From positions 1-37,138 of IMG/VR virus record IMGVR_UViG_3300012988_000026: a DNA stretch of 37,138 bases. One strand, given 5' to 3'. Every line of letters starts with the position of its first letter. The first letter of the stretch is position 1. A program made the translations under genes and the position numbers. The DNA is from a virus. Below are positions 2,758 through 15,099 of the stretch, one piece after another. The notes under the pieces were generated by a model that had not been told where the DNA came from, did no database searches, and saw only the letters and a list, made by a program, of their open reading frames with translations.

Positions 2758-2778
2758 CAACCTCACCAGGGGCACACC

Positions 2779-3072
2779 ATGACCCATATCGACATCGATG
2801 GCACGTATGTATCGACCGAACGGCAACAGCGAATTTCATCGGCCACGGCGCGCGCGGTGGTGGAGTTGATCGGAAACTTCTCCGCAGAGAAAACCGATTG
2901 CGAGGCCGCTGTAAACGGACTGGTTCACGCGCTCGGGTTCATCACCGGCACTTCGTTTTGCGCCCGCTGCGAAATCGGGTGGATGGCCTTTATCAACAAG
3001 CAGATTCCCCACCTCGCAAACCAGCACCGGCAGGCATTCGGGGATATCACTCCGTGCACATGCGTGCATTAA
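2779..3072 (+). CDS. hypothetical protein (97 aa)
   Basis: The start at ATG 2779 follows CAGGGGCACACC. The product begins MTHIDIDGTYVSTERQQRIS, is predicted soluble and alpha/beta, and contains four cysteines: C-ARC in the middle (FCARCEIG) and C-TC near the C-terminus (PCTCVH). These could form a metal-binding or disulfide pair, but the spacing (C-x2-C then C-x-C) is not diagnostic. No family recognised. It is separated from the annealing-protein gene by a 122-bp gap with a possible attenuator, so it may be expressed at a different level. Confidence 0.7.
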   Translation: MTHIDIDGTYVSTERQQRISSATARAVVELIGNFSAEKTDCEAAVNGLVHALGFITGTSFCARCEIGWMAFINKQIPHLANQHRQAFGDITPCTCVH

Positions 3073-3080
3073 GGGCCGCC

Positions 3081-3638: not shown

Positions 3639-3685
3639 CGCAGCGCGTACAAAGTCCGTAACCAAACTTTCAGGGAAAACACACC

Positions 3686-5143
3686 ATGTCAACGACGACC
3701 GAAACGAAGTGGACACACGAGGAATACATGGGCTCTGCCCTGCTCGGGCTTCCCTACCTTGACGCACCTGTACGCAAGGGTACAAAACGGTGCAGCCTGT
3801 CCGAGGCGATGTATCTGGGGCACCTGCAATTTTTTCCGAAGGCGCGCCACGTCAGCCGCAGCGAGATTCAAGGCCGTGACAGCAACGGGCGGTTTCGAAA
3901 AGCGTTCGATCAGGCCCGCGCCCTGGCCGCTTCTCACCCCGACACCGTGAAGGCCGCGAAGAAGCCCCCGGCAGACCTCCCGCCGTTCGATATCACGAAG
4001 CTGTCCGGGGCCGCGCTCGCCGAAATGGAAGACGAGGCCGGGGTTCGCGGCAATGCCCGATGGACGATGGACGAATGGGCCCGCATCGCGCGCGAGGAAC
4101 ACCGGCTCATTGCCCGAGGCGATACCCGTTCGCTGCCCCGCATCGTTCACGCGCTGCAATGGGAAATGTTCCCCCTGAACCGCCGCCGCCGCTTCCATGG
4201 CATCAAGCAGGGTGTGACGGGTGGAGCCCTCCGCCGATACCTCGACGAGGGCTATGCGTGGGGCCGCGAGAATATCCCGGGCTACATGCTCCCCGGCCCA
4301 CTGCCCACCGAGGCCACCAGCAGCCCCACCACGGCCTCCGCGCCGATCAGCAGCACCAATCCCCCCACCGCCCCCGCGCAAGCGCCCACAGAGGCCGCAG
4401 CGCCGCCCGTCGTCCCCGTGCTGGAAATGGTCACGCGCAGCACCCAGGCCAACGGCATCACCTCGCCGCCTCGATCCCCGATCAGCACCGCCCAGGCCGT
4501 CCACCACCGCGCCGTTTTCGCGCACGCCTCTACCGTGTTCGCCTCGACCATCACCGGGGCCGTGGACCAGCTTCTACAGGCGCACGCCGCCGCCCTCATG
4601 GGGGACATTGAAGCCCGGTTGTCGTCCATCGCCGCGAGCGTGGGCGCATCGGTCGCCCAGCAGGTAGAGAACGGCCTCCGCTCGACCGTGATGGCAACCC
4701 TTGCCCAGGAACTCGGGGGCCCCGTCGCGGAACCGGTTCCGCCCTCCCAGGCCGAGAGCCCCGCGAAGGCCCCGGAAACGCCCCAGGCGGCCCCGAAAGC
4801 CTATGGCCCCGAGCCCAGCACCCACCAGCCGGAAAAGGTCGTCCTACGGGCCGACGTGCTGGGGTTCCAGGGGAACACGGTGACCGAAATCAAAAACGCC
4901 CTGAACGGCCGGGCGGATCTGCGGTTCATCGTCCCGGAACACGTCAGCACATGGACCCCGCGCGACAAGGCGGAAGTTTTCATTGCAACCCGGTTTTCCG
5001 GGCACAACGCGGAGCGCCGCTGCTCCGCCTTCAATATCCGGCCGCATCGCGTGGACGGTGCGGGGACGAAAATGATTCTTGAACTCGAAAAGGCTTATCA
5101 CCAGCTTGTCCGCGAGGTTTCGCCCGGGGCTGTTGCCCACTGA
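3686..5143 (+). CDS. large unknown early protein (485 aa) with Pro/Ala-rich linkers
   Basis: This is the largest early gene, and I recognise no family. Residues 1-205 form a folded N-terminal part with basic segments (RRRRFHGIKQGVTGGALRRYLDEG). Residues about 205-265 are a Pro/Ala/Thr/Ser-rich linker. Residues about 270-355 look like a helical or coiled-coil segment rich in Ala and Gln (AVDQLLQAHAAALMGDIEARLSSIAASVGASVAQQV). A second Pro-rich linker precedes a C-terminal globular region (about 395-485) with mixed charge. The three-part design could suit a DNA-binding or replication protein, and no other replication candidate is visible, but this is speculation. The start at ATG 3686 follows CAGGGAAAACACACC. 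Confidence 0.8.
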   Translation: MSTTTETKWTHEEYMGSALLGLPYLDAPVRKGTKRCSLSEAMYLGHLQFFPKARHVSRSEIQGRDSNGRFRKAFDQARALAASHPDTVKAAKKPPADLPPFDITKLSGAALAEMEDEAGVRGNARWTMDEWARIAREEHRLIARGDTRSLPRIVHALQWEMFPLNRRRRFHGIKQGVTGGALRRYLDEGYAWGRENIPGYMLPGPLPTEATSSPTTASAPISSTNPPTAPAQAPTEAAAPPVVPVLEMVTRSTQANGITSPPRSPISTAQAVHHRAVFAHASTVFASTITGAVDQLLQAHAAALMGDIEARLSSIAASVGASVAQQVENGLRSTVMATLAQELGGPVAEPVPPSQAESPAKAPETPQAAPKAYGPEPSTHQPEKVVLRADVLGFQGNTVTEIKNALNGRADLRFIVPEHVSTWTPRDKAEVFIATRFSGHNAERRCSAFNIRPHRVDGAGTKMILELEKAYHQLVREVSPGAVAH

Positions 5144-5152
5144 TCGGCCACC

Positions 5153-5410
5153 ATGGAAACCGAGTATCCCCCGCCGCTGGGAACATTCGCCGTCGGCCCC
5201 ACGGAGGCCCGCGTGATGCTGGCCCTGATTACTGGCATCGGGTACGCATTCCCCCGCGCCCTGGCAGAGGTCGGCCAAACCCCGGAGGCGAGGAACGCCC
5301 TAGAGGCCGTCAAACGCATGAACGGGCCGGAATACGATGCCGTCGCAACCATGGCCGCTGTAATCGCCCTCCCGGTGATTATGGACGCCTTCGCCGATGT
5401 CCTCGGGTAA
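5153..5410 (+). CDS. hypothetical protein (85 aa)
   Basis: A short, Ala-rich protein (METEYPPPLGTFAVGPTEARVMLALITGIGYAFPRALAEVG...) beginning 10 bp after the preceding stop. It has moderately hydrophobic helices (RVMLALITGIGYAF and AVATMAAVIALPVIMDAFADVLG) that might be amphipathic or weakly membrane-associated, but there is no clear transmembrane topology. No family recognised. Its position in a tight operon and its codon bias support it as a real gene. Confidence 0.6.
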   Translation: METEYPPPLGTFAVGPTEARVMLALITGIGYAFPRALAEVGQTPEARNALEAVKRMNGPEYDAVATMAAVIALPVIMDAFADVLG

Positions 5411-5416
5411 CCCCGA

Positions 5417-5800
5417 ATGCGGATGTTTCATCAAAGCGGCCCGGCCGCGATATCCGCCATTCGGTTTCTGATCGAATCGAACGACCACCGCCGTTTAATG
5501 TGGAGTATGCGGGTCGGGCCGGAACGGTTGATTCTGTGGATTGGGCGAACGATATTGTCCGGGCCGGTGATTACCCTGGCGCTTATCGCTCACCTGTTGA
5601 CGGCGGATGATGGGCCCCTGATACCCTGGCCTTTTGGGTTCATCATCGCCAATTTTCAAATTCTGCTATTCGTCCTGCTGTTCAACGCCATCGAAAACCG
5701 CTGGAGAATCTTCCAGCAAATCGGCCGGGACTTGGCAGAGGAAGAACAAGAACTTTTGACCGCCTTGCATAAGGCGATGCAGGAAGAGGAATTATCGTGA
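5417..5800 (+). CDS. small two-helix membrane protein (127 aa)
   Basis: Two hydrophobic stretches are clear: about residues 38-62 (LILWIGRTILSGPVITLALIAHLL) and 72-91 (FGFIIANFQILLFVLLFNAI), separated by a short loop rich in D, G and P. The N-terminus is basic and the C-terminal 35 residues form a highly acidic amphipathic helix (EEEQELLTALHKAMQEEELS). The likely topology is an inner-membrane hairpin with both ends in the cytoplasm. Holin-like size and topology are possible, but its place in the early recombination operon, far from the late genes, argues against a lysis role. It overlaps the next gene by 4 bp (GTGA). No family recognised. Confidence 0.65.
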   Translation: MRMFHQSGPAAISAIRFLIESNDHRRLMWSMRVGPERLILWIGRTILSGPVITLALIAHLLTADDGPLIPWPFGFIIANFQILLFVLLFNAIENRWRIFQQIGRDLAEEEQELLTALHKAMQEEELS

Positions 5801-6396
5801 AAGTCAAAACCACCACGGATTACATTTTCATCCGCCAGCCCGGGGAGCCGGAATCCTACGCCGTCAGCGTGGAATCCCTCGACCCGAACGAGGAACGGAC
5901 GATTGATTGCGGCACCGTGACCCGCCGCGAGGGTTCCGCGACCCTGTGGGACATCCGGCACACCTCCGCCGAGGTGCACACCCTCTCTGACGTGCCGAAG
6001 GAGCTAGAAGCCGCCACGGCCGAGGAAATGCAAAAGGAGTATTGCTCCCGTTTCAGGGTGGCATTGATTAAGGCCGGGGCCGAAGATCCTTCGGAACGCG
6101 TCCGGGCTTACGAACGGGGTTTAGCCGGGCTGTTCGCCATCGCGGGGGATGAACCCATGGACCAGATGGCAATTTTTGTCGCCATGCTGCACGCCGTCGG
6201 GGATTACCTCGCCGACCAGGGCCCGGCCGAGCGGGACGAAGCCCGTTTGAATCAAACCATGGGCATTATTAAGGCTCGAATGGGTATCGCCCGCGCGAAA
6301 ACCGGTTTCGCCGATTTCATCAAGAATTTCATTTCCGAAAAACTCGGGGAAGCCGAAGGCGATACGCCGACGGACACAACCCCCACCATGCAATGA
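5797..6396 (+). CDS. hypothetical protein (199 aa)
   Basis: It starts at GTG 5797, overlapping the membrane-protein stop (GTGA), with GAGGAA upstream as ribosome-binding site. Residues 1-65 are strand-rich (TTDYIFIRQPGEPESYAVSVESL). The remainder is helical and acidic, with a Thr/Pro/Asp tail (EGDTPTDTTPTMQ). No signal peptide, membrane segment or recognised domain. Tight coupling to the upstream membrane-protein gene suggests that the two may act together. Function unknown. Confidence 0.75.
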   Translation: MKVKTTTDYIFIRQPGEPESYAVSVESLDPNEERTIDCGTVTRREGSATLWDIRHTSAEVHTLSDVPKELEAATAEEMQKEYCSRFRVALIKAGAEDPSERVRAYERGLAGLFAIAGDEPMDQMAIFVAMLHAVGDYLADQGPAERDEARLNQTMGIIKARMGIARAKTGFADFIKNFISEKLGEAEGDTPTDTTPTMQ

Positions 6397-6404
6397 GCTA
6401 GGAA

Positions 6405-6440
6405 CATCGAAACCGGCAGGGCAGGCCGGTTAGTTCGATG
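6405..6440 (+). promoter_or_regulatory. large inverted repeat upstream of the excisionase gene
   Basis: CATCGAA (6405-6411) pairs with TTCGATG (6434-6440). Directly inside, ACCGGC pairs with GCCGGT, leaving a 3-base bulge (TAG) and a short loop. The two stacked stems make about 13 bp of hairpin in the gap after the previous gene. There is no T tract, so it is not a standard intrinsic terminator. It could be an RNA processing or attenuation structure, or a protein-binding palindrome. Confidence 0.5.
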
Positions 6441-6448
6441 CAGGGATG

Positions 6449-6471
6449 GGGAATTAACGTCCGTTATTCCC
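6449..6471 (+). promoter_or_regulatory. palindromic candidate operator in the excisionase leader
   Basis: GGGAATTAACG (6449-6459) and CGTTATTCCC (6462-6471) form a 10-bp inverted repeat with a 2-base centre and a single extra T in the left arm. It ends just before the GGAG ribosome-binding site of the excisionase gene (start 6483), so it could be an operator or an mRNA hairpin that sequesters the start. The TAACG...CGTTA core resembles the half-site of the dispersed operator further right, but with much closer spacing. Confidence 0.45.
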
Positions 6472-6482
6472 GGAGTTTAAAA

Positions 6483-6806
6483 ATGATGGCCACCAAAGCC
6501 AATAAAACGCCCACCGCTAAAATCGCACTCGCTCCCAAACCTAAGCCGAAGGACACGAAAACCCCGAAGGAGGGTTATCACCAGCACCTTGAAATTGCCG
6601 AAAACCCGCGCGCGCTGCTTCGTCTAGAAACGGTTTGTGACCTCGTGGGATTGGCCCCCAAAACGATTGCGAAGTACCGCCGTCAGGGGCTTTTCCCGGA
6701 ACGCCACAAGCCGGAACTCGGGGGCCCTGTCCGCTTCCTGGCGGCCGATATTTACGCGTGGATTGAGGGCACTTGGAAACCCCGGGGCAAGCCCGGGGAC
6801 CAGTAA
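6483..6806 (+). CDS. AlpA/MerR-type HTH protein, probable excisionase
   Basis: This 107-aa basic protein has an N-terminal Lys/Pro-rich tail (KIALAPKPKPKDTKTPKEG). Residues about 50-100 hold a winged-helix AlpA-like domain: LLRLETVCDLVGLAPKTIAKYRRQGLFPERHKP, then GGPVRFLAADIYAWIEG. This is the usual layout of AlpA/Xis proteins, which bend attachment-site DNA with the integrase and can act as regulators. ATG 6483 was chosen for the GGAG 7 bp upstream. It ends against the integrase stop codon in convergent orientation, which supports the excisionase call. It may also regulate its own leader, which carries two inverted repeats. Confidence 0.75.
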   Translation: MMATKANKTPTAKIALAPKPKPKDTKTPKEGYHQHLEIAENPRALLRLETVCDLVGLAPKTIAKYRRQGLFPERHKPELGGPVRFLAADIYAWIEGTWKPRGKPGDQ

Positions 6807-8192
6807 TTAGGCGGCCCGCCGGGCCATTTCCACCACAGCACCCGAGGCGGTCAGGCGGTCGATATAGTCGGCCCAAACCTGCACCGCCTCGGTTCGTTCA
6901 GCCAACAGGGTTTCGCGGGCGTAGGCCGGGCCGAGCGGTTCGTCTGTGCCGTGGGCAAGTTGGAACTCCAGGCAGTCGCGGCCGATGCCACAGAACTCCC
7001 GGCACATGCTCCGGAACGTGGCGCGGAAGCCGTGGAGGGACTGGCGGCCCTTGAACCCCAGGCGGTCCAATTCATCGCGCACGCGGTCGGCCGAGAGGGG
7101 GAGGCCCTGGCCCGATTTCCATTCCTGATTCCCGAACACGAAAGGCGACACCGGCTCGCCCGCCGCGTCCTTTTCCACGTACTCCAGCACCTCCCGCAGC
7201 ACGGCCACCGCTTGACGGCAGAGCGGAACGATATGGTCATCACCGCTGATTTTCTTAGCCTTCGTGCCCTTCATTTCAGCGGCCGGGATGACCCATTGCG
7301 CCGCGTCCCAATCGATGTGCGCCCACTTCATCGCCTGCACGTTCACGGGCCGTTGCGCCACGTAGAGGGACACCAGCAGGGCCGCGCGGAGGGTCGGGTT
7401 CGGCGACGTGTTCAGGGCCTTGAAAAGCTCCACAAGCTCGCCCGGCTTGACGATGGCGGGGTGACCCTTCGTGTGCTTCGCGCGGCGCACCACAACACCC
7501 ACCGGGGCCACCGGGTCTTCCTTGCACAGGCCCACCACTTGAGCCAGGGAGAACGTTTGCGTAAGGTGGATGCGGACCACCTTCGACGCTTCGTGAATGC
7601 CCGCCGCATCCATGCGCTCGATAACGCCATAGATGTCGGCCGGGGTCACGTCCGCGCATTGCATGTCGCCGATAAACGGGTGAACGTGCTTATCCATCAT
7701 CCGAACCCACCGCGAGCCGTAGTGATCCGACCACTGATTTTTCTTGCCGCCCTTGACCCACCGCGAGGCGAGGAAGCGGTCCGCGATGTCGCGCACGGTG
7801 TTACGCGCTGCCTTGCCCGCTGCGATGCGCGCTGCCGCTTCCTCACGGTCGGCGATGTCACGGGCCAGGGCCTCCGCCTCGGCCTTCCGTACGGCCTTCG
7901 GGCACTGGCCCCGGGCGATGATGGCGCGAGCCTTCGCGGCCTCGGCCTCGGCCTCGACGATGGACACGGCGGGGTACTGACCCAGGCTCATGGAATCGCG
8001 CTTGCCCTTCGTCGGGTTCGGGAAATCGAAGCGCCAGGAATGCAGGCCGCCGGGGGTCCAATTGGCCTCCAGGTAAAGGCCCTTGCCAGCGTTCCAGCGC
8101 TTGACCGTGCCAGCACGGGCGCGGCGGATCTTGTCATCGGTGGCGCGGGGGGCCGTGGTGCGGGTCGAAACGGAGGCGGTAGCAGTGTTCAT
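6807..8192 (-). CDS. int: tyrosine integrase, P4/DUF4102 type
   Basis: Site-specific recombinase for integration and excision. The 461-aa length and layout match P4-type integrases: an N-terminal DUF4102 arm-binding domain (residues about 15-110, with SWRFDF and MSLGQYPAVSIVEAEAEA), a SAM-like core-binding region (about 130-240) and a catalytic domain (about 250-450). Catalytic residues can be read as R281 (AQRPVNVQAMKW), H320 region, H387 and R390 (HGFRATFRSM), H414 (QLAHG) and the nucleophile Y424 (PAYAR). All are present, so it should be active. The start ATG at 8192 has AAGGAAC upstream, and a candidate operator (8205-8219) overlaps the promoter region, suggesting control by the phage repressor. 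Confidence 0.95.
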   Translation of the reverse strand: MNTATASVSTRTTAPRATDDKIRRARAGTVKRWNAGKGLYLEANWTPGGLHSWRFDFPNPTKGKRDSMSLGQYPAVSIVEAEAEAAKARAIIARGQCPKAVRKAEAEALARDIADREEAAARIAAGKAARNTVRDIADRFLASRWVKGGKKNQWSDHYGSRWVRMMDKHVHPFIGDMQCADVTPADIYGVIERMDAAGIHEASKVVRIHLTQTFSLAQVVGLCKEDPVAPVGVVVRRAKHTKGHPAIVKPGELVELFKALNTSPNPTLRAALLVSLYVAQRPVNVQAMKWAHIDWDAAQWVIPAAEMKGTKAKKISGDDHIVPLCRQAVAVLREVLEYVEKDAAGEPVSPFVFGNQEWKSGQGLPLSADRVRDELDRLGFKGRQSLHGFRATFRSMCREFCGIGRDCLEFQLAHGTDEPLGPAYARETLLAERTEAVQVWADYIDRLTASGAVVEMARRAA

Positions 8193-8204
8193 CGGGGTTC
8201 CTTG

Positions 8205-8219
8205 TGACGCTTTGCGTTA
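8205..8219 (-). promoter_or_regulatory. candidate repressor operator in the int leader
   Basis: TGACGC-TTT-GCGTTA is a full copy of the TNACGC-N3-GCGTNA palindrome found at least nine more times in this window. It ends 13 bp upstream of the integrase start codon. Read on the minus strand it is followed by CACAAG, the same arrangement (operator, then a CACAAT-like -10) seen at the plus-strand cassettes. Binding here would be expected to repress int. Confidence 0.65.
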
Positions 8220-8246
8220 GACGGTGACCCGATTCTGAATGCTGAT

Positions 8247-8478
8247 TTTTGTGCTGTAAAGTGTGTGGCAACCGGGAGCACTCAGGAGCACTCGGGAGGA
8301 AAATCCGGAGCGTTATCCCTTGTGAATCAACAGGTTATGTCATGCCCGGAGCACTGTGGAGCACTCCAGAGCAAGTGTCCGGCGTTAGCCGGGATGATGC
8401 CGGGACATCGAAATTTCCTTTGTGAATCAACCACTTAGGTTTCGGGGTGGTCCCGTGTGCTGTATTTTGTGCTGTATT
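8247..8478. other. candidate attP region with integrase/Xis-type repeats
   Basis: The int upstream gap (8193-8486) has no gene and contains several ordered repeats. TGTGCTGTA occurs at 8250, 8456 and 8468, the last two 12 bp apart. TTGTGAATCAAC occurs at 8320 and 8420, exactly 100 bp apart. GGAGCACT occurs at 8275 and 8285 and again at 8348 and 8358, each pair with 10-bp period and each followed one turn later by a degenerate copy. Repeats phased to the DNA helix beside a P4-type int gene are what arm-type and core sites of an attachment region look like. The crossover core itself cannot be identified without the bacterial junctions. Confidence 0.55.
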
Positions 8479-8486
8479 CCCGCTTT

Positions 8487-8756
8487 TTACGGTTTCCAGC
8501 GCTCGCACCAATCATCGCATCGTTTTTCGTACTCCAAACGCCCCAGGCGATGACGTTGCGACAGGAGTTCGGCCGCCTCGGCCAGGGCCTCCGCTTGACC
8601 CATCACCAGCCGCACACCGCCCACGATGTCGGGCGCACCGTCCCGGACCCTCGGGCATGAGGCGCGCACCGCCTCGGGGAGCATGTCCCAGGCTTCGGCG
8701 ATGACCCATTGCAGCCGCTCCACGCGGAGAGTCGCCTCTTGCAGTTCGTGGTTCAC
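8487..8756 (-). CDS. hypothetical protein (89 aa)
   Basis: It starts at GTG 8756, overlapping the TGA of the preceding gene (GTGA), as is usual in this operon; the open frame further upstream is out of register with that coupling. The product begins VNHELQEATLRVERLQWVIAEAWDML and is helical, with a short Cys/Trp-rich tail (KRCDDWCERWKP). It is the last gene of the minus-strand accessory operon and ends just beside the repeat-rich attP candidate. No family recognised. Confidence 0.65.
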   Translation of the reverse strand: MNHELQEATLRVERLQWVIAEAWDMLPEAVRASCPRVRDGAPDIVGGVRLVMGQAEALAEAAELLSQRHRLGRLEYEKRCDDWCERWKP

Positions 8757-9001
8757 TTTGCCTCTATCGTGGGCACGGCCCGCAGTAGCGCCGCCACAGC
8801 AGAGGCCCCCACGTCGAAAAGCGCGTGAAGCTCGGGGGTTCGTTCGTCGGGTTGGATGCACTCCGTACGAAGGCGGCGGGTTTGGCTGTCCTCGACGTGA
8901 ACCCACACCGGGGCATTCGTCCAGCCGGGGCCGCTCACGTACTCGGGGACCACCGACACAACGCGTTCAAACGGCCCCAGGGCGATTGTTTTGGGCTTCA
9001 T
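8753..9001 (-). CDS. hypothetical protein (82 aa)
   Basis: Starts at ATG 9001, overlapping the preceding gene by 4 bp (ATGA), and overlaps the following gene by 4 bp. The N-terminal half is strand-rich (KTIALGPFERVVSVVPEYV, NAPVWVHVEDSQTRRLRTECIQPDE), followed by an amphipathic helix (LHALFDVGASAVAALLRAV). No membrane segment or known motif. It belongs to the run of eight short, overlapping minus-strand genes. Function unknown. Confidence 0.65.
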   Translation of the reverse strand: MKPKTIALGPFERVVSVVPEYVSGPGWTNAPVWVHVEDSQTRRLRTECIQPDERTPELHALFDVGASAVAALLRAVPTIEAK

Positions 9002-9225
9002 GGGGGGTCATTGTGGCCCACGGGCCGAACCCACTCCCACGCCCACCCGTAGCGGTCCAGGATGGCCCGCGCTTCCTCGGGCGACTTGCGCCGCATCCAT
9101 GACAGGATTGGGGCCGACTCCGTGCACCTCCAAACGCCGTCGCGCTTGACCCACACGGCCCCCGCACAGAACTTCGGAGAGGTCACGCGCAATAGCCGCT
9201 CGGGGCTTTGCATGTTGCCCGTCAT
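8998..9225 (-). CDS. small phage protein (75 aa), function unknown
   Basis: The core FCAGAVWVKRDGVWRCTESAPILSWMRRKSPEEARAILDRYGWAWEWV resembles a short ORF common in phage accessory operons: a beta-hairpin around a paired Cys/Trp region, then a helix ending in an aromatic cluster. ATG 9225 is used here; a second ATG four codons later (9213) begins MQSPERLL. The start region ATGACGGGCAACATGCAA is nearly repeated at the next two upstream genes. The downstream gene overlaps by 4 bp. No biochemical role is assigned. Confidence 0.7.
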   Translation of the reverse strand: MTGNMQSPERLLRVTSPKFCAGAVWVKRDGVWRCTESAPILSWMRRKSPEEARAILDRYGWAWEWVRPVGHNDPP

Positions 9226-9226
9226 G

Positions 9227-9565
9227 TCAATTGCCCTTCGTCATGGGCCCTTCAATTGCTCGACGCTTGACCTCTTCAACGATGATCCCGTGTCCCTTCG
9301 CGGCATCGGCCCGGCTCTCGTACCGGTACGTCAGGGGCGAGCCATCGGGCGGGAACACCATCGTTTCGTACAGGCCGCCGATGTGGGGCGTTCCTAGGAA
9401 GATGGTAGACACCGAGGTGTCCCCGATCCTCGTGTGAGCCACCGCCGAACGCTCCGCCGCCATCCATCGGGACCACTTGATCGGGTCGGGTTCCGGCACC
9501 GGCACGCCGTCGCATTCAATGAACGTCAGCCGCTCGCCGAACACCCTTTGCATGATGCCTGTCAT
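9227..9565 (-). CDS. conserved phage protein (112 aa), function unknown
   Basis: I recognise the pattern of this protein from many phages: a short N-terminal strand region (FIECDGVPVPEPDPIKWSRWM), then AERSAVAHTRIGDTSVSTIFLGTPHIGG, then LYETMVFPPDG, a Tyr-containing segment (YRYESRADAAKGHGIIVEEVKR) and a helical end. It is usually annotated as hypothetical. It is soluble, without a signal sequence. The start shares the repeated ATGAC..GC..CATGCAA motif. It lies 1 bp from its neighbour. No role can be assigned from sequence. Confidence 0.75.
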   Translation of the reverse strand: MTGIMQRVFGERLTFIECDGVPVPEPDPIKWSRWMAAERSAVAHTRIGDTSVSTIFLGTPHIGGLYETMVFPPDGSPLTYRYESRADAAKGHGIIVEEVKRRAIEGPMTKGN

Positions 9566-9566
9566 T

Positions 9567-9815
9567 TCATTCGTCCCGGCCCACGACTCCCGCCGCGTCC
9601 GCCGCGCCTCGAAGCGCCCCGGCCAGCATGTCCGCCAGTAGGTCCGTCAGCCGATCTTTCAGGCCCGAAGCTTCGACGAAGTGCGCGGGCATCAGGCAAA
9701 TAGGCGTGCCTTCGTCCGTGGGGTCATCGCGCCGAAAAACGTAATACACGATGCCGTCATCTTCGCGCCTGCTTTTCAGTTCGAAGAACACCCGATGTTG
9801 CATGGTGTCCGTCAT
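9567..9815 (-). CDS. hypothetical protein (82 aa)
   Basis: The start ATG 9815 overlaps the stop of the upstream gene (ATGA); an in-frame ATG at 9803 is the alternative, with AAGGA 12 bp upstream. The N-terminal half is strand-rich (HRVFFELKSRREDDGIVYYVFRRDD), and the C-terminal half is an Ala/Leu-rich helix (KDRLTDLLADMLAGALRGAADAAG) with an acidic end. No family recognised. The start region again carries the ATGAC...CATGCAA motif. Confidence 0.65.
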   Translation of the reverse strand: MTDTMQHRVFFELKSRREDDGIVYYVFRRDDPTDEGTPICLMPAHFVEASGLKDRLTDLLADMLAGALRGAADAAGVVGRDE

Positions 9816-10216
9816 TCCTTGCGCCCCTCGGCCAGGGCCTTCATTTGCTCCCAGGTCAGCGGCACGACCGAAGCGGATTCGATGGGCTTCGACCCCTTCA
9901 CCGCGCGTTGATGACCGGCCCACTTCACCCGCTGTTCGGGCGTCATGTCCTCCGGGCAGTATTCCCACATGAGGGCGTCAATGTGCGCTTGCCGCGAGTC
10001 CAGCCGCCCGCGCAGCTCGCTCACCTGTTCCTGTGCCGTGTCCCGTTGGACGCGTAGCAGCGTGACCGCGCGCGCGAGGTAGTGCCCGGCATCCCTGCTG
10101 CCGTCGTCCGTGGCCGCGATTTGCTCGCGCACCTCCAGCGGGAACGCCATCCAGGCGCGGTTAAAAATCTCGTTCCACTCGGGCGAGCCGTTAGGGGGAA
10201 GGTCTACGAAGTTCAT
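9812..10216 (-). CDS. hypothetical protein (134 aa)
   Basis: The frame is open upstream, but ATG 10216 coincides with the end of the next gene (its stop begins there), so this start is favoured. Residues about 1-35 contain SPEWNEIFNRAWMAFPLEVREQI; residues about 45-80 are a likely coiled coil (YLARAVTLLRVQRDTAQEQVSELRGRL); the end is basic then helical (TWEQMKALAEGRKE). No domain recognised. It sits in the middle of the accessory operon. Confidence 0.65.
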   Translation of the reverse strand: MNFVDLPPNGSPEWNEIFNRAWMAFPLEVREQIAATDDGSRDAGHYLARAVTLLRVQRDTAQEQVSELRGRLDSRQAHIDALMWEYCPEDMTPEQRVKWAGHQRAVKGSKPIESASVVPLTWEQMKALAEGRKE

Positions 10217-10572
10217 CAGCCCACCATGATTCGGGGAGGTGTCGGAATGGCCGCCTCGATGGGCCGCCACAGGTGCAGGCAAAAGGGGTGTTTGTTGACG
10301 TACTCCGAGGCCGCCGGGTGAAGCTGCATCACCACATCTTCGGGGCCCCAAAAAAGGCCCTTCACGTAGTGCATTTCCTCCCACGTCGGGCACCGGGTCG
10401 CGGTCGATACGGAGACATGCTCCCACCCCTCCCCACTGGCCGCCATGATGCGCAGCGCTAGGGGCCGTCTAGCGGTCGCCGGGAGAATGAACCACCCGCA
10501 CGTTTCATCGCCCGCCCACACGCCCGGGACGTGCTTGCGGTAGCGGTTCACCTCACCATCACATCGGAACAT
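10216..10572 (-). CDS. DUF7694-like phage protein (118 aa)
   Basis: The C-terminal half reads PTWEEMHYVKGLFWGPEDVVMQLHPAASEYVNKHPFCLHLWRP and ends with IPTPPRIMVG. This is the characteristic pattern of a small phage family that I recall as DUF7694, whose function is not established. The N-terminal half is strand-rich with a WFILPATARRPLALRIMAASGEGWEHVSVS segment. No signal or membrane segment. Recognition of the family is by eye; the stretch with YVN-HP-CLHLW is the most diagnostic part. It is coupled to its neighbours in the minus-strand operon. Confidence 0.75.
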   Translation of the reverse strand: MFRCDGEVNRYRKHVPGVWAGDETCGWFILPATARRPLALRIMAASGEGWEHVSVSTATRCPTWEEMHYVKGLFWGPEDVVMQLHPAASEYVNKHPFCLHLWRPIEAAIPTPPRIMVG

Positions 10573-10575
10573 CGT

Positions 10576-11004
10576 TCACCCCTTCGCCGCTTCCATGTGC
10601 GCGAACGCCTCGCCCATCCTGTCGGCCGCCTGCACCGCCGTGCGGGCCCGTAGAGGCACCGCCAGGGCCGCCGCCGCTTGTTCCTGCACGCGTGTGCCGG
10701 ACAGGTTCCCCAGGTCCGTGCGCCGCAGCGGGCCAAACCCCGAGATGGAAATTTTCGCTTTGCGCGCGGGGCATGGGGTCACCGACCCGTCCGGGTTCGC
10801 GTGGTTGCCGGTTTGGAATTGCCGGGCCTGCACGCGCTTAAGCAATCGCTCGCGCCATTCCTTCGGTTCGGCAATGAGTTCGCGCGCCACGCGCGAGGGG
10901 ATGCCTAGCGGGTACGTGTCGGTGCAGTCGCCCCATTCGTCCGGCTCGGTCACGCCCTGCACGGCGCGCGCGTTCGCTGGGTGTCCTAACAGGTGGTCAC
11001 GCAT
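10576..11004 (-). CDS. hypothetical protein (142 aa)
   Basis: Begins at ATG 11004, 3 bp after the previous stop. The sequence contains a tryptophan-bearing region (EPDEWGDCTDTYPLGIPSRVARELIAEPKEWRERLLKRVQARQF), then a Lys/Arg segment (PCPARKAKISISGFGPLRRTDLGNLSG), then an Ala-rich helix (VQEQAAAALAVPLRARTAVQAADRMGEAFAHMEAAKG). The basic C-terminal half could bind nucleic acid, but there is no recognisable domain. Function unknown. Confidence 0.65.
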   Translation of the reverse strand: MRDHLLGHPANARAVQGVTEPDEWGDCTDTYPLGIPSRVARELIAEPKEWRERLLKRVQARQFQTGNHANPDGSVTPCPARKAKISISGFGPLRRTDLGNLSGTRVQEQAAAALAVPLRARTAVQAADRMGEAFAHMEAAKG

Positions 11005-11007
11005 GGG

Positions 11008-11508
11008 TCAGTCCTTTTTGTTGGAGCGCATTTGCGCCACTTCCTTAAGCGCCCGTTCGGCCATCATCAGGCGCGCCCTTGCAATCTGTTCTTCCAGCAG
11101 CCGAACGTGTCGGTCCCTCGCATCGCCTCGCAGCGGTTCAGGCCAGGGCGGGGGAGACACCGCCCGAGGGGGTGGAAAGTCCGTCCAGTAGCGGGGCGAA
11201 GGTCGGGGCGGTGGTGCCGGGGGCGGGGGCGGTGGTGGAGGCGGTGGCGCGTACGTCGTGGGCCTCCCGGGGAAGTCCGGCACGGCCTCAACCCGCATCC
11301 TGTCCGCAGGTCCGTACGCGTAGCCGCTCCACCTCGCCGAACCCACGTCCGCACACAGCACCCCGGCGAAATCGAGGCATGCCATCAAGGCACCCACCCG
11401 CAATTCGTCCGCCTCCCACTCGTCACCCGCGAACCCGCGCCCCAAGCCCTCCACCTCCACGGGATCGGGCTCTAGGAACTCACTCACGGCGTTAGAGGTC
11501 CGGCGCAT
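11008..11508 (-). CDS. Pro-rich hypothetical protein (166 aa), first gene of the minus-strand operon
   Basis: First gene of the leftward accessory operon. ATG 11508 is the best start; the frame can be extended to a TTG at 11526. Residues about 1-80 are acidic and mixed, then come an uninterrupted run of ten prolines with a further short Pro block (about 86-102), and a basic coiled-coil C-terminus (RHVRLLEEQIARARLMMAERALKEVAQMRSNKKD). The poly-Pro run should demand elongation factor P. No family recognised. The gap upstream (11509-11657) is shared with the plus-strand cassette promoter and holds two operator copies, so both directions may be controlled together. Confidence 0.6.
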   Translation of the reverse strand: MRRTSNAVSEFLEPDPVEVEGLGRGFAGDEWEADELRVGALMACLDFAGVLCADVGSARWSGYAYGPADRMRVEAVPDFPGRPTTYAPPPPPPPPPPAPPPRPSPRYWTDFPPPRAVSPPPWPEPLRGDARDRHVRLLEEQIARARLMMAERALKEVAQMRSNKKD

Positions 11509-11570
11509 CCCGTGATTCCACCGCAAATTCCGGCCGATGGCAAATCTGGCTTAGTTTTCCGTGCGATAAC

Positions 11571-11624
11571 TAACGCTCTGCGTCACACAAACCGCTTGCG
11601 TTAACTAACGCTCTGCGTCACAAT
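11571..11624 (+). promoter_or_regulatory. operator pair and promoter of small-gene cassette 1
   Basis: Two identical TAACGC-TCT-GCGTCA palindromes lie at 11571-11585 and 11606-11620, 35 bp apart. Around the second is a promoter: -35 TTGCGT (11596-11601), 17-bp spacer, -10 CACAAT (11619-11624). The operator thus fills the spacer, where a bound repressor would block RNA polymerase. The shared gap also lies upstream of the minus-strand accessory operon (starting 11508). The same architecture is repeated at 12005 and 12602. Confidence 0.75.
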
Positions 11625-11657
11625 TCTTTCATCGAATCACGCAACAGGAAACGCACC

Positions 11658-11807
11658 ATGAACAGCAACGTTTACACCGCCATCGTCACCACCCCGAAGG
11701 GCAACGCCGACGCCGTGAAGATCCGCGCATCGAACAGCACCGAAGCATTCGCCATGCTGGTTCGCCTCGGCTACCGCAACCCCCGCAACATCACGAAGCA
11801 GAAGTAA
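11658..11807 (+). CDS. cassette 1, first small protein (49 aa)
   Basis: MNSNVYTAIVTTPKGNADAV begins after CAGGAAACGCACC. The protein has an N-terminal strand region, then IRASNSTEAFAMLVRLGYRNP, consistent with a small alpha/beta fold. It resembles the middle of the later 76-aa protein at 12366 (strand, then [A-T]-S-x-x-E-A helix), which suggests a common fold but is not proof. It has its own operator pair, promoter and leader. Function unknown; regulated like an early or lysogeny gene. Confidence 0.7.
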   Translation: MNSNVYTAIVTTPKGNADAVKIRASNSTEAFAMLVRLGYRNPRNITKQK

Positions 11808-11826
11808 GGCCCGGGGCTTCGGCCCC
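11808..11826 (+). promoter_or_regulatory. GC hairpin with TTCG loop between the two genes of cassette 1
   Basis: GGGGC (11813-11817), loop TTCG, GCCCC (11822-11826) lies directly after the first gene's stop. A closely similar hairpin sits at the matching place in cassette 2 (12328-12341). UUCG-capped stems are very stable in RNA. There is no T tract, so it may protect or attenuate the transcript rather than terminate it. Confidence 0.55.
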
Positions 11827-11849
11827 ACCTCCAAACCCTTTCAGGATTC

Positions 11850-12002
11850 ATGAAAATGGAAATCAAGGTTGTTCTCCACTTCGCCGACCACACCAAGGTG
11901 ACCACGGTCTACCCCGTCGCAAAGCTCGCGGACGCCCTGGCCCACTTCGCGCAATACGTCGCCGACGGCAAGCGCGCCACCATCGAACACACCGACCAAT
12001 GA
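11850..12002 (+). CDS. cassette 1, second small protein (50 aa)
   Basis: Reads MKMEIKVVLHFADHTKVTTVYPVAKLADALAHFAQYVADGKRATIEHTDQ: a beta-hairpin followed by a long amphipathic helix, soluble, no signal. The start follows CCTTTCAGGATTC, and the codon bias is strong. It is the second gene of a two-gene cassette under the operator pair at 11571. No family recognised. Confidence 0.65.
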   Translation: MKMEIKVVLHFADHTKVTTVYPVAKLADALAHFAQYVADGKRATIEHTDQ

Positions 12003-12004
12003 AC

Positions 12005-12058
12005 TAACGCAGAGCGTGAGATAAGTCTCTAGACGCTACTAACGCTCTGCGTCACAAT
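12005..12058 (+). promoter_or_regulatory. operator pair and promoter of small-gene cassette 2
   Basis: TAACGC-AGA-GCGTGA at 12005-12019 and TAACGC-TCT-GCGTCA at 12040-12054 are 35 bp apart. The promoter reads -35 TAGACG (12030-12035), 17-bp spacer, -10 CACAAT (12053-12058), with the second operator in the spacer. The first operator begins 2 bp after the cassette 1 stop codon. The leader after the -10 (ACTACATCGAC...) resembles that of cassettes 1 and 3. Confidence 0.75.
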
Positions 12059-12093
12059 AACTACATCGACACACCGCACACGGAGCCCACGAA

Positions 12094-12321
12094 ATGACCC
12101 ACCCCCAAGTTATCGAATTCGTCGCCATCGGCCACACCGCAAACGGTATCGCTCACGCGTGGATGGAACGCACCGAAGGCAAGGAAGACCGTTTTTTCAA
12201 GGACGTTCCGATGACGGTTTACAGCCACGCACTCGGCCGCGAAATCGGGCTGTCTAACGTGGTGGAAATCCCGGCCCGCGAGTACCACGAACTTTTCTCT
12301 ATCTTCGCCGCCGCCGCCTAA
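12094..12321 (+). CDS. cassette 2, first small protein (75 aa)
   Basis: MTHPQVIEFVAIGHTANGIAHAWMERTEGKEDRFFKDVPM... is a soluble, strand-rich, mildly acidic protein with a C-terminal helix (REYHELFSIFAAAA). The start is the first ATG after the shared leader (CGGAGCCCACGAA). No family recognised. It lies under its own operator pair and promoter, which suggests that its product is switched by the phage repressor. Confidence 0.7.
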   Translation: MTHPQVIEFVAIGHTANGIAHAWMERTEGKEDRFFKDVPMTVYSHALGREIGLSNVVEIPAREYHELFSIFAAAA

Positions 12322-12327
12322 CACCCC

Positions 12328-12341
12328 GGGGCCTCGACCCC
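12328..12341 (+). promoter_or_regulatory. GC hairpin between the two genes of cassette 2
   Basis: GGGG-CCTCGA-CCCC lies 6 bp after the first gene's stop codon. Together with its flanks it matches about 17 of 20 bases of the cassette 1 hairpin (CCCGGGGC..TCG.CCCC), so the two intergenic elements look like copies of one another. The T-run of a terminator is missing. Confidence 0.5.
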
Positions 12342-12365
12342 ATCACCGAACACACAGGACACACG

Positions 12366-12596
12366 ATGAACACCGCCACCGCCACGCTCCAAGCCTATCA
12401 AGTGATGACCTCGACGCCGATGCAGGGGCCGCGCGGGGGCAAGGCGAAGCCGCTGATTCAGTTCTACATCGTGACCGCCACCAGCCGCGAGGAAGCCCGG
12501 GAAATCTTCGTCGCCGAATCCGAGCCCCACCACCTAGAGGGCGTCGAAATCACAGCCGTGACCGCTTGCGGGTGCCGCGTGATGCCGGGCCGCTAA
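12366..12596 (+). CDS. cassette 2, second small protein (76 aa)
   Basis: Begins MNTATATLQAYQVMTSTPMQG and continues with a strand (FYIVTATSREEAREIFVAE) and a C-terminal Cys pair (TACGCRV). The first six codons encode MNTATA, as at the integrase start (8192), though the leaders differ. It sits after the hairpin in cassette 2. Soluble, no signal. No family recognised. Confidence 0.65.
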   Translation: MNTATATLQAYQVMTSTPMQGPRGGKAKPLIQFYIVTATSREEAREIFVAESEPHHLEGVEITAVTACGCRVMPGR

Positions 12597-12601
12597 ACAA
12601 C

Positions 12602-12655
12602 TAACGCAAAGCGTGAGTTTCGCCACAGACAGCGCTAACGCTCTGCGTCACACTA
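12602..12655 (+). promoter_or_regulatory. operator pair and promoter of small-gene cassette 3
   Basis: TAACGC-AAA-GCGTGA (12602-12616) and TAACGC-TCT-GCGTCA (12636-12650) are 34 bp apart, matching the 35-bp pairs of cassettes 1 and 2. A -35-like CAGACA followed by a 17-bp spacer gives CACACT as -10; the match is weaker than in cassettes 1 and 2. The downstream leader TCATCGAATCAACGAAC is almost the same as that of cassette 1 (TCATCGAATCACGCAAC). Confidence 0.7.
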
Positions 12656-12687
12656 GAGTCATCGAATCAACGAACGGAACCGACACC

Positions 12688-13230
12688 ATGACCACCGCAA
12701 AGACCACCGCCGCAAAGAAGCCCCGCGCTACCACCGCCCGCACGAAAAACAGCCTCATGGCCGCCGGGTCGGGCATCTACGAATGCCGCTGCTGTCACCG
12801 TCAAACCCGCGCCACTGGCAACGGGGATAACGAACACGTCACGCTGTGCGAACAGTGCTACAGCCTCGCGGGCAACGAAAACCACATGAACGACAACGGG
12901 GGCGCGCTGTACGACCGCCCGGAAGACATCCTCTATTGGATTCAAGTCATCGAAGACAAGCGGGGCGACGTGTCCGGGTGGGCCGACGTGAAGGCCGCCG
13001 CCCTGGCCGCCATGCTGCCCCCGGGGAGCTTCGAAGCCACGGACGCCCACGGCAAGGCCCATCCGAAGACCACCGCCGGGCACGCTGTCGCCCTCGTGAA
13101 GGCTTCGGGGTCCGGCCGGGTGGTGGAGTACCACGGCGCTACCGCGTGCCTCGTGTGGGCCCTCCAGGCGGGCCAATGGTGGCTTCTCGGCAAGGGCGGG
13201 GAACGCCTGCACCAGCAGGTTCCGAGCTAA
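12688..13230 (+). CDS. zinc-ribbon-like protein (180 aa), cassette 3
   Basis: The start at ATG 12688 follows ACGGAACCGACACC; the upstream extension of the frame runs through the operators and is rejected. Residues 1-30 are Lys/Thr/Ala-rich. Residues 33-57 hold CRCCHRQTR and CEQCYSL, giving C-x2-C and C-x2-C pairs like a zinc ribbon; an ECRCC...CEQCY core of this kind is widespread in plasmid and phage proteins. A possible acidic central region follows (DRPEDILYWIQVIEDKRGD), then a C-terminal strand region. Cytoplasmic, probably a regulator or DNA/RNA binder, but the role is unknown. Confidence 0.75.
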   Translation: MTTAKTTAAKKPRATTARTKNSLMAAGSGIYECRCCHRQTRATGNGDNEHVTLCEQCYSLAGNENHMNDNGGALYDRPEDILYWIQVIEDKRGDVSGWADVKAAALAAMLPPGSFEATDAHGKAHPKTTAGHAVALVKASGSGRVVEYHGATACLVWALQAGQWWLLGKGGERLHQQVPS

Positions 13231-13239
13231 GGCCAGGGC

Positions 13240-13266
13240 GGGAGGCGGGACGGTGGTTCCCCTCCC
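13240..13266 (+). other. GC-rich inverted repeat after the cassette 3 gene
   Basis: GGGAGG (13240-13245) and CCTCCC (13261-13266) flank a 15-base loop. A second GC-rich palindromic stretch (CCCTAGGGCCCGGGGG) follows. No T tract. It holds the place of the hairpins of cassettes 1 and 2 but is not a close copy of them. Confidence 0.35.
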
Positions 13267-13291
13267 CTAGGGCCCGGGGGTGGATTTGCGC

Positions 13292-13375
13292 TAACGCATT
13301 GCATAGCATTGAATGAACGCAAAAAGTCACGGTATTCGTTACGATGTACACCGACCGTTCTCACGCTTTGCGTTA
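13292..13375 (+). promoter_or_regulatory. triple operator upstream of the HTH gene
   Basis: Three copies are evenly spaced by 35 and 34 bp: TAACGC-ATT-GCATAG (13292-13306, right half degenerate), TCACGG-TAT-TCGTTA (13327-13341, two changes) and TCACGC-TTT-GCGTTA (13361-13375, full match). The last ends 24 bp before the HTH start at 13399 and overlaps the likely promoter. One strong and two weaker sites with the same phasing as the cassette pairs suggest cooperative binding and autoregulation. Confidence 0.65.
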
Positions 13376-13398
13376 GTATCCAACTAGAGATAACCGAT

Positions 13399-13650
13399 AT
13401 GCCGAATACGAAACCCATCCCCACCCCCGCCGAAATCGCACTCGCCCGCGAGGTTGCCGGACTCACCCAATCCCAAGCCGCAGAGCTTGTGTTTTTGGGT
13501 GCCGGGCAACGGTGGGCGGAGTATGAACGCGGACTAAGAGTGATGGACTATTCCCGCTGGGAATTGTTCGCCATCAAAACCGGGCAACACCCGGATTACA
13601 AGCCGACAAAAGCGAAATTTGTCATCACGGCAAAACCGAAGTTAACCTAA
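13399..13650 (+). CDS. small HTH regulator, candidate operator-binding repressor
   Basis: This 83-aa protein has an XRE/Cro-like helix-turn-helix: IALAREVAGLTQSQAAELVFLGAGQRWAEYERGLRVMDYSRWELFAIKTG. It is basic at the C-terminus (TKAKFVITAKPKL) and has no peptidase or dimerisation domain of the CI/LexA type. It is preceded by three phased operator copies, so it probably binds the TNACGC-N3-GCGTNA sites, represses its own promoter and controls the cassettes and int. The open frame upstream to 13309 runs through the operators and is rejected; ATG 13399 follows AGAGATAACCGAT. A similar HTH protein is encoded at 34109. Repressor, Cro-like or activator roles cannot be told apart from sequence. Confidence 0.75.
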   Translation: MPNTKPIPTPAEIALAREVAGLTQSQAAELVFLGAGQRWAEYERGLRVMDYSRWELFAIKTGQHPDYKPTKAKFVITAKPKLT

Positions 13651-13659
13651 AGCTAGACC

Positions 13660-14043
13660 ATGCTCCACACTGCAAAACCCCTCGCCCTGGCCCTTATCGC
13701 GCTGCTCGCGTCCGCAGGTAATGCCAATGCCGCAGACTCCGCCGCGCGCGAGCGCGTGAAGGCCGCCTATTCGGACGCCCAAAAGGGCAAACGGACGATC
13801 AAGGAAGCCCAGCGCGACCCGGCCTCGTTCGAATTGGTTTCGGTGTCGTGGCACCCGAACGCCGATGCGCTCTGCTATACCTACCGGTCCAAAAACGGGT
13901 TTGGAGGCGTGAACGTTTCCCGGGCCATTTACGGCCGAGCTACGGGGAAAATCGCCTACTCCGAAAAGGTCAAGGACAAGGACTTTGCATCGGTGTGGGC
14001 GGTCGGGTGCAGTGACGCGGACAAAATCCCGTTCAACCTGTGA
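13660..14043 (+). CDS. exported protein with cleavable signal peptide (127 aa)
   Basis: The N-terminus (MLHTAKPLALALIALLASAGNANA) is a clear Sec signal peptide with a predicted cut after ANA near residue 24. The mature part is a small soluble domain with two cysteines (C72 in ADALCYTYRS and C117 in WAVGCSDAD), well placed for a disulfide in the periplasm. The segment CYTYRSKNGFGGVNVSRAIY suggests a beta-rich fold. It shows no lysozyme or amidase motifs. It lies after the HTH gene, so it may be expressed in the lysogen, for example as an envelope or superinfection-exclusion factor (inference only). Confidence 0.7.
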   Translation: MLHTAKPLALALIALLASAGNANAADSAARERVKAAYSDAQKGKRTIKEAQRDPASFELVSVSWHPNADALCYTYRSKNGFGGVNVSRAIYGRATGKIAYSEKVKDKDFASVWAVGCSDADKIPFNL

Positions 14044-14276
14044 GCGACCCGGCCCGCCCCCTGGCGCTTTGGACGGTGTATGACCACCCGTCAGACCAGC
14101 CGGATTGTTTCATCGCCCGGAAATTCCTGATCGTCGCTGGCGGCCCCATCGCCACAGAGGAAACCCGGGCGGCCCGCACGCTGCAACCCCTCCGCGACTC
14201 ATTCGAGCTTGAGGGCCTGTATTGTCTGCCGCGCGAACCGAATGACGATCCAAAAATAATCGAGTCGTGGCTATGA
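14040..14276 (+). CDS. small conserved phage protein (78 aa), function unknown
   Basis: Starts at GTG 14040, overlapping the previous stop (GTGA). The pattern ALWTVYDHPSDQPDCFIARKFLIVAGGP ... LRDSFELEGLYCLPREPNDDPKIIESWL is common in phage and prophage genomes, where it is annotated as hypothetical; it looks like a small alpha/beta domain. It overlaps the next gene by 4 bp (ATGA at 14273). No function known to me. Confidence 0.75.
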   Translation: MSDPARPLALWTVYDHPSDQPDCFIARKFLIVAGGPIATEETRAARTLQPLRDSFELEGLYCLPREPNDDPKIIESWL

Positions 14277-14935
14277 ACCCGTTAACTGCCCCCGTGGCCC
14301 CGGAAGACTTCAACCCTAAATCGATGGCTGTTGCCCAAATGTGGGTTAGGGGCACTCCGGACACCCGGAAAACCATCGAAACGATGCACGCGCATTACCG
14401 GGACCAGTTCCAGCCGAACGCGGACACCACGGTGAACCCCGAGGGCGTAGCGGCCACGCTGCATATGAAGGTCGATAAGGGCATGCGGAGACTGTCCCAA
14501 ACGCCCCAATGGGCCGGGGTGTCCTGCAAAAAAGGGTGTTCGGCGTGCTGTCACCTCCCCGTGAGAATCACGCGCGAAGAAGCCATATTGATTCGCTGGC
14601 ACATGCGCAAACACGGAATGACCGTGGACGAGGGCCGCCTAGAACGGCAATCCACAGTTGACGCCGACAGCCCGAAGGCGTGGGCGAATCTCCCGCCAGG
14701 GGACCGAAAATGTGTGTTCCTGAAACAGGGGCAATGCTCGATATACGAACGTCGGCCGATGGCGTGCCGAAAATACGTGGTCAAGAACGACCCGGAATTC
14801 TGCGACACGGAAAAGCACCTCGGCCACGAGGTAGCGGTTTTGGTGGACCCCGAGGCGGAGGTTATTTACAGCGCGGCCCTGTCGGTATTCGATTCCGACC
14901 TAATGGGCGCGGCATTACTCAAAGTGAAGCCGTAA
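14273..14935 (+). CDS. YkgJ-like Cys-cluster protein (220 aa)
   Basis: A cluster of eight cysteines matches the YkgJ/zinc- or iron-chelating family: C85, C89, C92, C93 (CKKGCSACC), then C147, C155 (KQGQC), C165 and C177. The motif QCSIYERRPMACR is the family signature. The protein is about 220 aa with an N-terminal extension of about 80 residues. It probably binds a metal ion in the cytoplasm; its biological role is unknown. ATG 14273 overlaps the previous stop. It is the last plus-strand gene before the late operon comes in from the other side. Confidence 0.8.
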   Translation: MNPLTAPVAPEDFNPKSMAVAQMWVRGTPDTRKTIETMHAHYRDQFQPNADTTVNPEGVAATLHMKVDKGMRRLSQTPQWAGVSCKKGCSACCHLPVRITREEAILIRWHMRKHGMTVDEGRLERQSTVDADSPKAWANLPPGDRKCVFLKQGQCSIYERRPMACRKYVVKNDPEFCDTEKHLGHEVAVLVDPEAEVIYSAALSVFDSDLMGAALLKVKP

Positions 14936-14969
14936 AAAAGAAAACCCCCCTCAAATCCACCGAGGGAGG
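14934..14969 (-). terminator. intrinsic terminator of the late operon
   Basis: Read on the minus strand, CCTCCCTC (14969-14962), a 9-base loop and GAGGGGGG (14952-14945) form an 8-bp stem with one G-U pair, followed by TTTTCTTTTTT (14944-14934). It terminates transcription leaving the lipoprotein gene and protects the plus-strand gene ending at 14935 from convergent read-through. Confidence 0.75.
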
Positions 14970-15084
14970 CAATCCGGCCGCAAGCCCCCAGGGAGGAAGG
15001 GGGCGGGGAAGCAAAGGGAGCGACGGGTACGCCGGGAACCGTTAGCAGCTAGCCCCCGACACGGCCCGGATTGTGTCGCCCGCG

Positions 15085-15099
15085 TGACGCTATGCGTTA
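15085..15099 (+). promoter_or_regulatory. solitary operator copy between converging genes
   Basis: TGACGC-TAT-GCGTTA is a full-match copy of the dispersed operator, placed in the gap (14936-15122) between the YkgJ-like gene and the 3' end of the late operon. No gene start is nearby on either strand, and I see no partner copy 34-35 bp away. The gap otherwise holds only the terminator. Confidence 0.6.

Follow-up and report, generated by a model that had tools for sequence, protein, structure and literature searches.

The DNA analysed here, referred to below as the window (the whole IMG/VR viral record IMGVR_UViG_3300012988_000026; 37,138 bases, host not stated in the record), raises the question of what purpose is served by a short palindrome repeated in the gaps between its genes, and which protein recognises it. 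The window encodes an HK97-like terminase (48% identity) and a tyrosine integrase, a predicted gene content that is that of a temperate phage, and it has a distant relative in the phage record G006, with which it has an exonuclease-like gene and others in common. As the two ends of the window fall where G006 carries cro-like and replication-type genes, the window may be incomplete, its immunity region possibly being absent. A tRNA-linked origin was considered and found to be unsupported, there being no tRNA in the window.

A preliminary description of this DNA had listed eleven copies of the palindrome, and all eleven coordinates proved correct: nine are exact matches to TNACGC-N3-GCGTNA (starting at 8205, 11571, 11606, 12005, 12040, 12602, 12636, 13361 and 15085), and two are degenerate. 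No tenth exact match is present across the 37 kb of the window, positions 1 to 8204 and those beyond 15099 being free of such sites. Dinucleotide shuffling of the window (1000 rounds) left an average of 0.05 exact matches and at most one, against nine observed, by which a chance origin was ruled out; furthermore, other 4-bp cores placed in the same T-N-core-N3-core-N-A frame each occur at most once in the window. Equal frequency inside coding regions had been put forward as an observation that would speak against operators, and it was not encountered: all nine exact sites lie outside likely genes. Upstream of cassettes 1, 2 and 3 the sites form pairs spaced by 35, 35 and 34 bp, respectively, while three sites in a row precede the helix-turn-helix (HTH) gene at 13399, and single sites are found at int and at 15085. 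The two degenerate copies, TAACGCATTGCATAG at 13292 and TCACGGTATTCGTTA at 13327 (together 13292..13341, + strand), carry two mismatches each; since two-mismatch matches are near chance in the window overall (28 found versus 19 expected), these copies are assigned by their 35- and 34-bp phasing with the 13361 site ahead of the HTH promoter, and not by sequence in isolation. The placement of all sites but one upstream of genes was confirmed, the exception being the exact match at 15085..15099 (no strand assigned), which lies between the ends of the convergent genes 14935 (+) and 15123 (-) and for which neither a neighbouring target gene nor a convincing promoter was found. An exact scan of viral contigs for TAACGCTCTGCGTCACA gave zero matches.

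The positions of the sites within promoters are particularly informative. As had been claimed, the proximal copy lies between the -35 and -10 hexamers, and it does so in the same register in four promoters: at 11606, 12040, 12636 and 13361 the layout is -35, NNNC, operator and -10, with a spacer of 17 bp and with an identical offset between operator and -10 hexamer. These promoters, all on the + strand, are those of cassette 1 (11596..11624; -35 TTGCGT, operator 11606-11620, -10 CACAAT), cassette 2 (12030..12058; -35 TAGACG, operator 12040-12054, -10 CACAAT), cassette 3 (12626..12654; -35 CAGACA, operator 12636-12650, -10 CACACT) and the HTH gene (13351..13379; -35 CCGACC, operator 13361-13375, -10 TAGTAT). 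Each cassette promoter is additionally preceded by an exactly matching distal operator (11571..11585, 12005..12019 and 12602..12616, respectively; all +). Because the leaders of the cassettes are alike (TCATCGAATCA-like), as is their promoter layout, the data suggest that a promoter unit was duplicated. The hexamers of the window are weak relative to consensus and were missed by a stricter promoter scan; near-consensus promoters surround the sites of relatives (TTGACA-17-TATATT in L041 and TTGACA-17-AATAAT in G408). Across the window and its relatives, 21 of 33 sites reached a promoter score in register of at least 7 of 12, compared to 6.6% of random positions, a control that is imperfect in that the operator's own GCGTTA supplies letters to the -10 hexamer. 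An inverted repeat within the core promoter of the operon that holds the HTH gene, which is a hallmark of Aca systems, is present at 13361 and likewise in the operons of L031, L037 and L038.

The situation at the integrase gene (int, 6807..8192, - strand; Pfam and PHROGs) is different in its details. A single exact operator, TAACGCAAAGCGTCA (8205..8219, -), precedes the int ATG by 12 bp, and its flanks equal those of the cassette operators (CTAACGC..GCGTCACAA). A promoter-like TTTACA-17-CAGAAT element (8232..8260, -) precedes the operator in turn, again by 12 bp; it is a weak match, with one found where 1.1 would be expected by chance. The viral scan returned no close relative of int that could be used for a conservation test. 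The interpretation given in the preliminary description was upheld in part: that the repressor switches integration is plausible, with a site at the start of int and a promoter-like element upstream, but the case is weaker than that for the cassettes; int is a probable member of the regulon.

The best candidate for a protein reading these sites is the product of the HTH gene itself (13399..13650, +; 83 aa, helix RWAEYE), identified as Aca10-like by profile, by Foldseek and by operator linkage in other records. Over 54 residues, this protein and Pseudomonas citronellolis Aca10 are 46% identical, and a PDB search with the HTH profile ranked the Aca10 structure 7XI5 first (E 1.6e-19). The AlphaFold model (mean pLDDT 83) likewise returned 7XI5 at rank 1 in Foldseek (target TM 0.93, rmsd 0.8 Å), with an E value of 0.005 that is modest but in line with the small size of the domain (57 residues); the HTH domain therefore agrees with Aca10 in both sequence and fold. 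Aca10 is a dimer with the minimal site 5'-ATACGCTCATTGAGCGTAT-3', its operator being ATACGC-N7-GCGTAT, and the residues shown to matter are R44, which is critical for DNA, and E52, K57 and G49 (dimer) (PMC9410881). In the alignment, R44, E52 and K57 correspond to R47, E55 and K60 of the 13399 protein, while G49 is not kept (S52). The measured Aca10 site was found at the expected place in L052; ACGC-N7-GCGT is absent from the window, and for this reason the protein is termed Aca10-like rather than Aca10 proper. The two operator types have the ACGC half-site in common and differ in their spacer, N7 in Aca10 and N3 here, so that the half-site, which had earlier been listed as not recognised from a described phage repressor, is essentially that of Aca10, ATACGC, at a different spacing (PMC9410881).

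Records other than the window were searched from both directions, i.e. by site and by protein. A scan of viral contigs for operator pairs, using DNA only, yielded 21 records, among which L014/L031 carry an operator pair followed by three small ORFs and then an HTH gene whose product is 51% identical to the 13399 protein (59% over the best stretch), and L026 carries a distant HTH protein of this type. Whole-record searches found the HTH family in three of the 21, many of the rest being short fragments. A direct scan for the HTH family gave 104 candidate loci in 2.9 million contigs, and a search with the L031 protein led to L037 and L038, each with an operator, small ORFs and the HTH gene; in L031, L037 and L038 the HTH gene is the last of a single operator-controlled operon. 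The spacing of the site pairs is 33 bp in L031 and 34 bp in L038. In bacterial genomes, the search identified L041, which has two cassettes; at the head of each is a strong promoter with ATACGC-N3-GCGTAT inside it. Among 20 phage records encoding a 13399-type protein or one closely similar to it, eight have exact N3 sites, and the 20 records contain 16 N3 sites in total versus three for a reversed control pattern, and the nine exact sites of the window are the highest count among these phage records. The 72-kb record G409 has three genes with the promoter layout seen in the window, in which the operator runs into TATATA and is followed by a leader, a ribosome binding site and a small gene; they are located some 40 kb from its own HTH gene, and a fourth site is also present; G408 and G406 have two and three sites, respectively. 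The operon of G006 has a site pair with one mismatch per copy, and another exact site precedes, by 9 bp, a phrog_1524 gene of unassigned function near the cro-like gene. As judged from these records, phages with 13399-type proteins have either a single site-controlled operon with the HTH gene at its end, or several dispersed genes that appear to be site-driven (G409, G408 and G406). Searches by tblastn of GenBank phages with the 13399 protein and with its L031 relative gave zero matches, and a viral scan with the G006 gene returned only itself. L011-L013 were rejected as relatives, as none has an operator and L012, examined closely, encodes an ordinary XRE-type repressor.

Among deduplicated homologs, the class of recognition helix and the operator spacing go together. 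Loci of the RW[AS]EYE class have N3 sites in 11 of 28 cases and N7 sites in none, while those of the Aca10-type class have N7 sites in 11 of 39 cases and an N3 site in one (p-values of 1.4e-4 and 1.7e-3, which are optimistic because the sequences are related). The remaining 17 of the 28 RW[AS]EYE loci have no exact match to the N3 pattern within about 2.6 kb, and for homologs with other helices (e.g. L043-L049 and L054) no matching site was found. In the alignment, the RW[AS]EYE class has an insertion of one residue immediately ahead of the recognition helix, and we infer from the correlation that this insertion may set the operator spacing.

Taken together, the palindromes are very likely bound by the 13399 protein. 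The earlier proposal of one repressor acting on several accessory promoters is well supported by comparison: whether records are searched by site or by protein, the operator is encountered together with this HTH type in other phages, and its position is within the core promoter. We interpret the locus as a predicted regulon of several promoters governed by an Aca10-like repressor, to which int probably belongs, and consider with good confidence that the palindromes are operators through which this repressor, as a dimer, would shut down the cassettes, its own gene and probably int. DNA binding and repression would proceed as follows. The protein would bind the operators as a dimer, and at the proximal operator, between -35 and -10, it would exclude RNA polymerase, while the distal copy, located upstream at a distance of about 3.3 helical turns, probably increases occupancy or tightens shut-off. 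Incoming phage DNA would be free of repressor, allowing the cassette promoters to fire at once, after which the 13399 protein, made from its own operator-controlled promoter, would shut off the cassettes, itself and probably int, so that early expression would come as a pulse; through the int site, integrase may be reduced as the repressor builds up. Single-operon shut-off logic is established for Aca proteins (PMC9410906), and the window would extend that logic from one operon to several.

The cassette genes predicted to be under this control, all on the + strand, are mostly small. Cassette 1 consists of a 49-aa gene read from the sequence as an ORF (11658..11807; no family in Pfam or PHROGs) and a 50-aa gene (11850..12002), and cassette 2 of a 75-aa gene (12094..12321), neither of the latter two having an assigned family in Pfam or PHROGs, followed by a 76-aa gene of unassigned function (12366..12596; weak phrog_10718 match, E 0.002). 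Cassette 3 has one gene of 180 aa with a Cys-rich N-terminal part (12688..13230; phrog_3633, E 4e-19), the product of which has a relative in Delftia phage PhiW-14 and none in a viral contig scan. Since the fetched loci of relatives yielded no convincing counterparts of the cassette proteins, the cassette contents are not common to these phages. No known anti-CRISPR family was detected among them by Pfam or PHROGs, and they are candidate anti-defence genes through guilt by association. It is possible, and is offered tentatively, that the RW[AS]EYE branch as a whole runs phage-wide early regulons of dispersed, separately promoted and unrelated anti-defence cassettes, integration included, its shift from N7 to N3 having occurred together with the insertion before the recognition helix.

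The sites might instead belong to a lysogeny (immunity) repressor in the manner of L5 or SPbeta, with the 13399 protein either as the master regulator or only as one of the targets of a repressor whose gene lies on missing DNA. Many dispersed sites per repressor are typical of such phages (PMC9283540; PMC10516654), the sites at int and before the G006 gene near the cro-like gene go beyond accessory genes, and the window may lack its immunity region. However, neither the recombination operon (22-6396) nor the structural and packaging genes have an exact site, so that no early lytic or structural promoter was found covered in this possibly incomplete record; the HTH gene ends a single operator-controlled operon in L031, L037 and L038, as in acr-aca operons; and the top relative is Aca10 rather than a CI-type protein. 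We regard this reading as unlikely.

Two further explanations were considered. The int and G006 sites, lying 9-12 bp upstream of the ATG and with low in-register promoter scores (6 of 12), could act mainly in the mRNA as a hairpin by the ribosome binding site, translation being lowered by the repressor or by folding itself; another Aca protein, Aca2, binds RNA. Such a role is quite improbable, as TTTACA-17-CAGAAT ends just before the int operator and ordinary blocking of DNA would thus be enough, there are just two known sites of this kind, and the stem formed in the RNA would be short, at 4-5 pairs. That the palindrome is a host-factor site or a general repeat, with the HTH gene a passenger, would accommodate the paired copies in viral records without the 13399-type family, yet it is disfavoured and highly improbable given the linkage between helix class and spacing, the operator at the head of HTH operons in several unrelated records, and a half-site that agrees with one measured for Aca10. 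An Aca10-like repressor acting on dispersed DNA operators remains the preferred reading.

Genes for anti-CRISPR and other anti-defence proteins are difficult to spot, being small and mutually dissimilar. Here a short, near-exact DNA word marks the promoters of small genes, even where the regulator gene is some 40 kb away (G409), and the operator could serve as bait for candidate anti-defence genes in bacterial phages, as a regulatory sequence already has in archaeal viruses (PMC11065993). Single-operon Aca control, archaeal Aca8 gene sets (PMC11065993) and plasmid establishment regulons (PMC8708921) are already known; the open-licence literature yielded no description of a bacterial-phage regulon under an Aca10-type repressor, of the N3 class, or of an earlier Aca regulon with several promoters or an integrase.

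The closest known systems resemble the locus in part. The DNA-binding domains of the antitoxins MqsA and HigA2 (3FMY, 5J9I) have a related HTH, but their operators differ in sequence and no toxin partner is seen in the window. Mycobacteriophage L5 stoperators (PMC9283540) and the SPbeta MrpR/SPBRE system (PMC10516654) similarly combine one phage repressor with many dispersed intergenic sites; these repressors, however, keep lysogeny, the L5 type binding asymmetric sites as a monomer (PMC9283540) and MrpR having a tyrosine-recombinase fold (PMC10516654). The establishment regulons of pLS20-family plasmids resemble the window in having several variable early-gene operons under one common regulatory sequence, but serve conjugation and are regulated differently (PMC8708921). 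Similar in organisation are the Aca8-associated genes of archaeal rudiviruses, i.e. many single small early genes with a common promoter/regulatory sequence and a small putative repressor bearing the same sequence, although there the promoters are of the archaeal TATA/BRE kind and the regulator is unrelated (PMC11065993). The acrIC7-acrIC6-aca10 operon of Pseudomonas citronellolis (PDB 7XI5; PMC9410881) has the same HTH fold, A/T-flanked ACGC half-sites and an operator between -35 and -10, and in it, as in L031, L037 and L038, small genes are followed by the HTH gene. In contrast to that operon, the window has several separately promoted cassettes and int, no known acr gene, an N3 rather than N7 spacer and one more residue before the recognition helix, the last two differences representing a testable case of a small repressor family that changes its operator geometry while keeping the half-site.

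The window carries a second HTH gene resembling that of Aca10 (the Pseudomonas citronellolis regulator), with the recognition helix RTWQKWE, beside an H-NS-like gene (PF00816, E 5e-15); the two features lie at 34109-34375 and 34452-34778 on the plus strand, as an insert flanked by packaging genes. No ACGC-N7-GCGT site was found in the whole window. Downstream of the HTH gene at 13399, a CxxCxxCC putative metal-binding protein is encoded at 14267-14935 (plus strand; PF03692, E 4e-10). Upstream of the integrase gene, GGAGCACT- and TTGTGAATCAAC-type words recur between 8270 and 8440, and these repeats possibly represent the integrase arm sites of attP. Position 1 falls at an early operon and position 37138 at the terminase small subunit; immunity and replication genes of the kind that adjoin the exonuclease-like gene in the distant relative G006 appear to be absent from the record.

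Pairs of the TNACGC-N3-GCGTNA site together with a third copy were observed in the gap preceding terminase-type genes in seven loci of a phage group other than that of the window (L016, L021, L022, L025, L030, L024 and L027). No HTH of the 13399 family was detected in their available records, and the word may be used by a different regulator in this group. Additionally, a lone N3 site in each of the records G409 and G411 (L158:12068 and L161:1398) lies near a stretch, GGAAT-CAGCTTCA...GGGAGAAGCC, common to the two.

Aca10-type HTH domains were also observed fused to C5 cytosine DNA methyltransferases (L045:4033-4971, L050:245-1450 and L051:2185-3390), the methyltransferase part of the L045 fusion belonging to PF00145. 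Furthermore, an HTH match was obtained in 62 Klebsiella plasmid records. In the one plasmid among these from which operator and gene order were taken (L077, NZ_CP132707.1, 1946-2698), the exact Aca10 operator AATACGCTCATTGAGCGTATT is followed by a 148-aa gene of unassigned function (WP_046664216.1), a candidate anti-defence gene, and then by an Aca10-like HTH gene.
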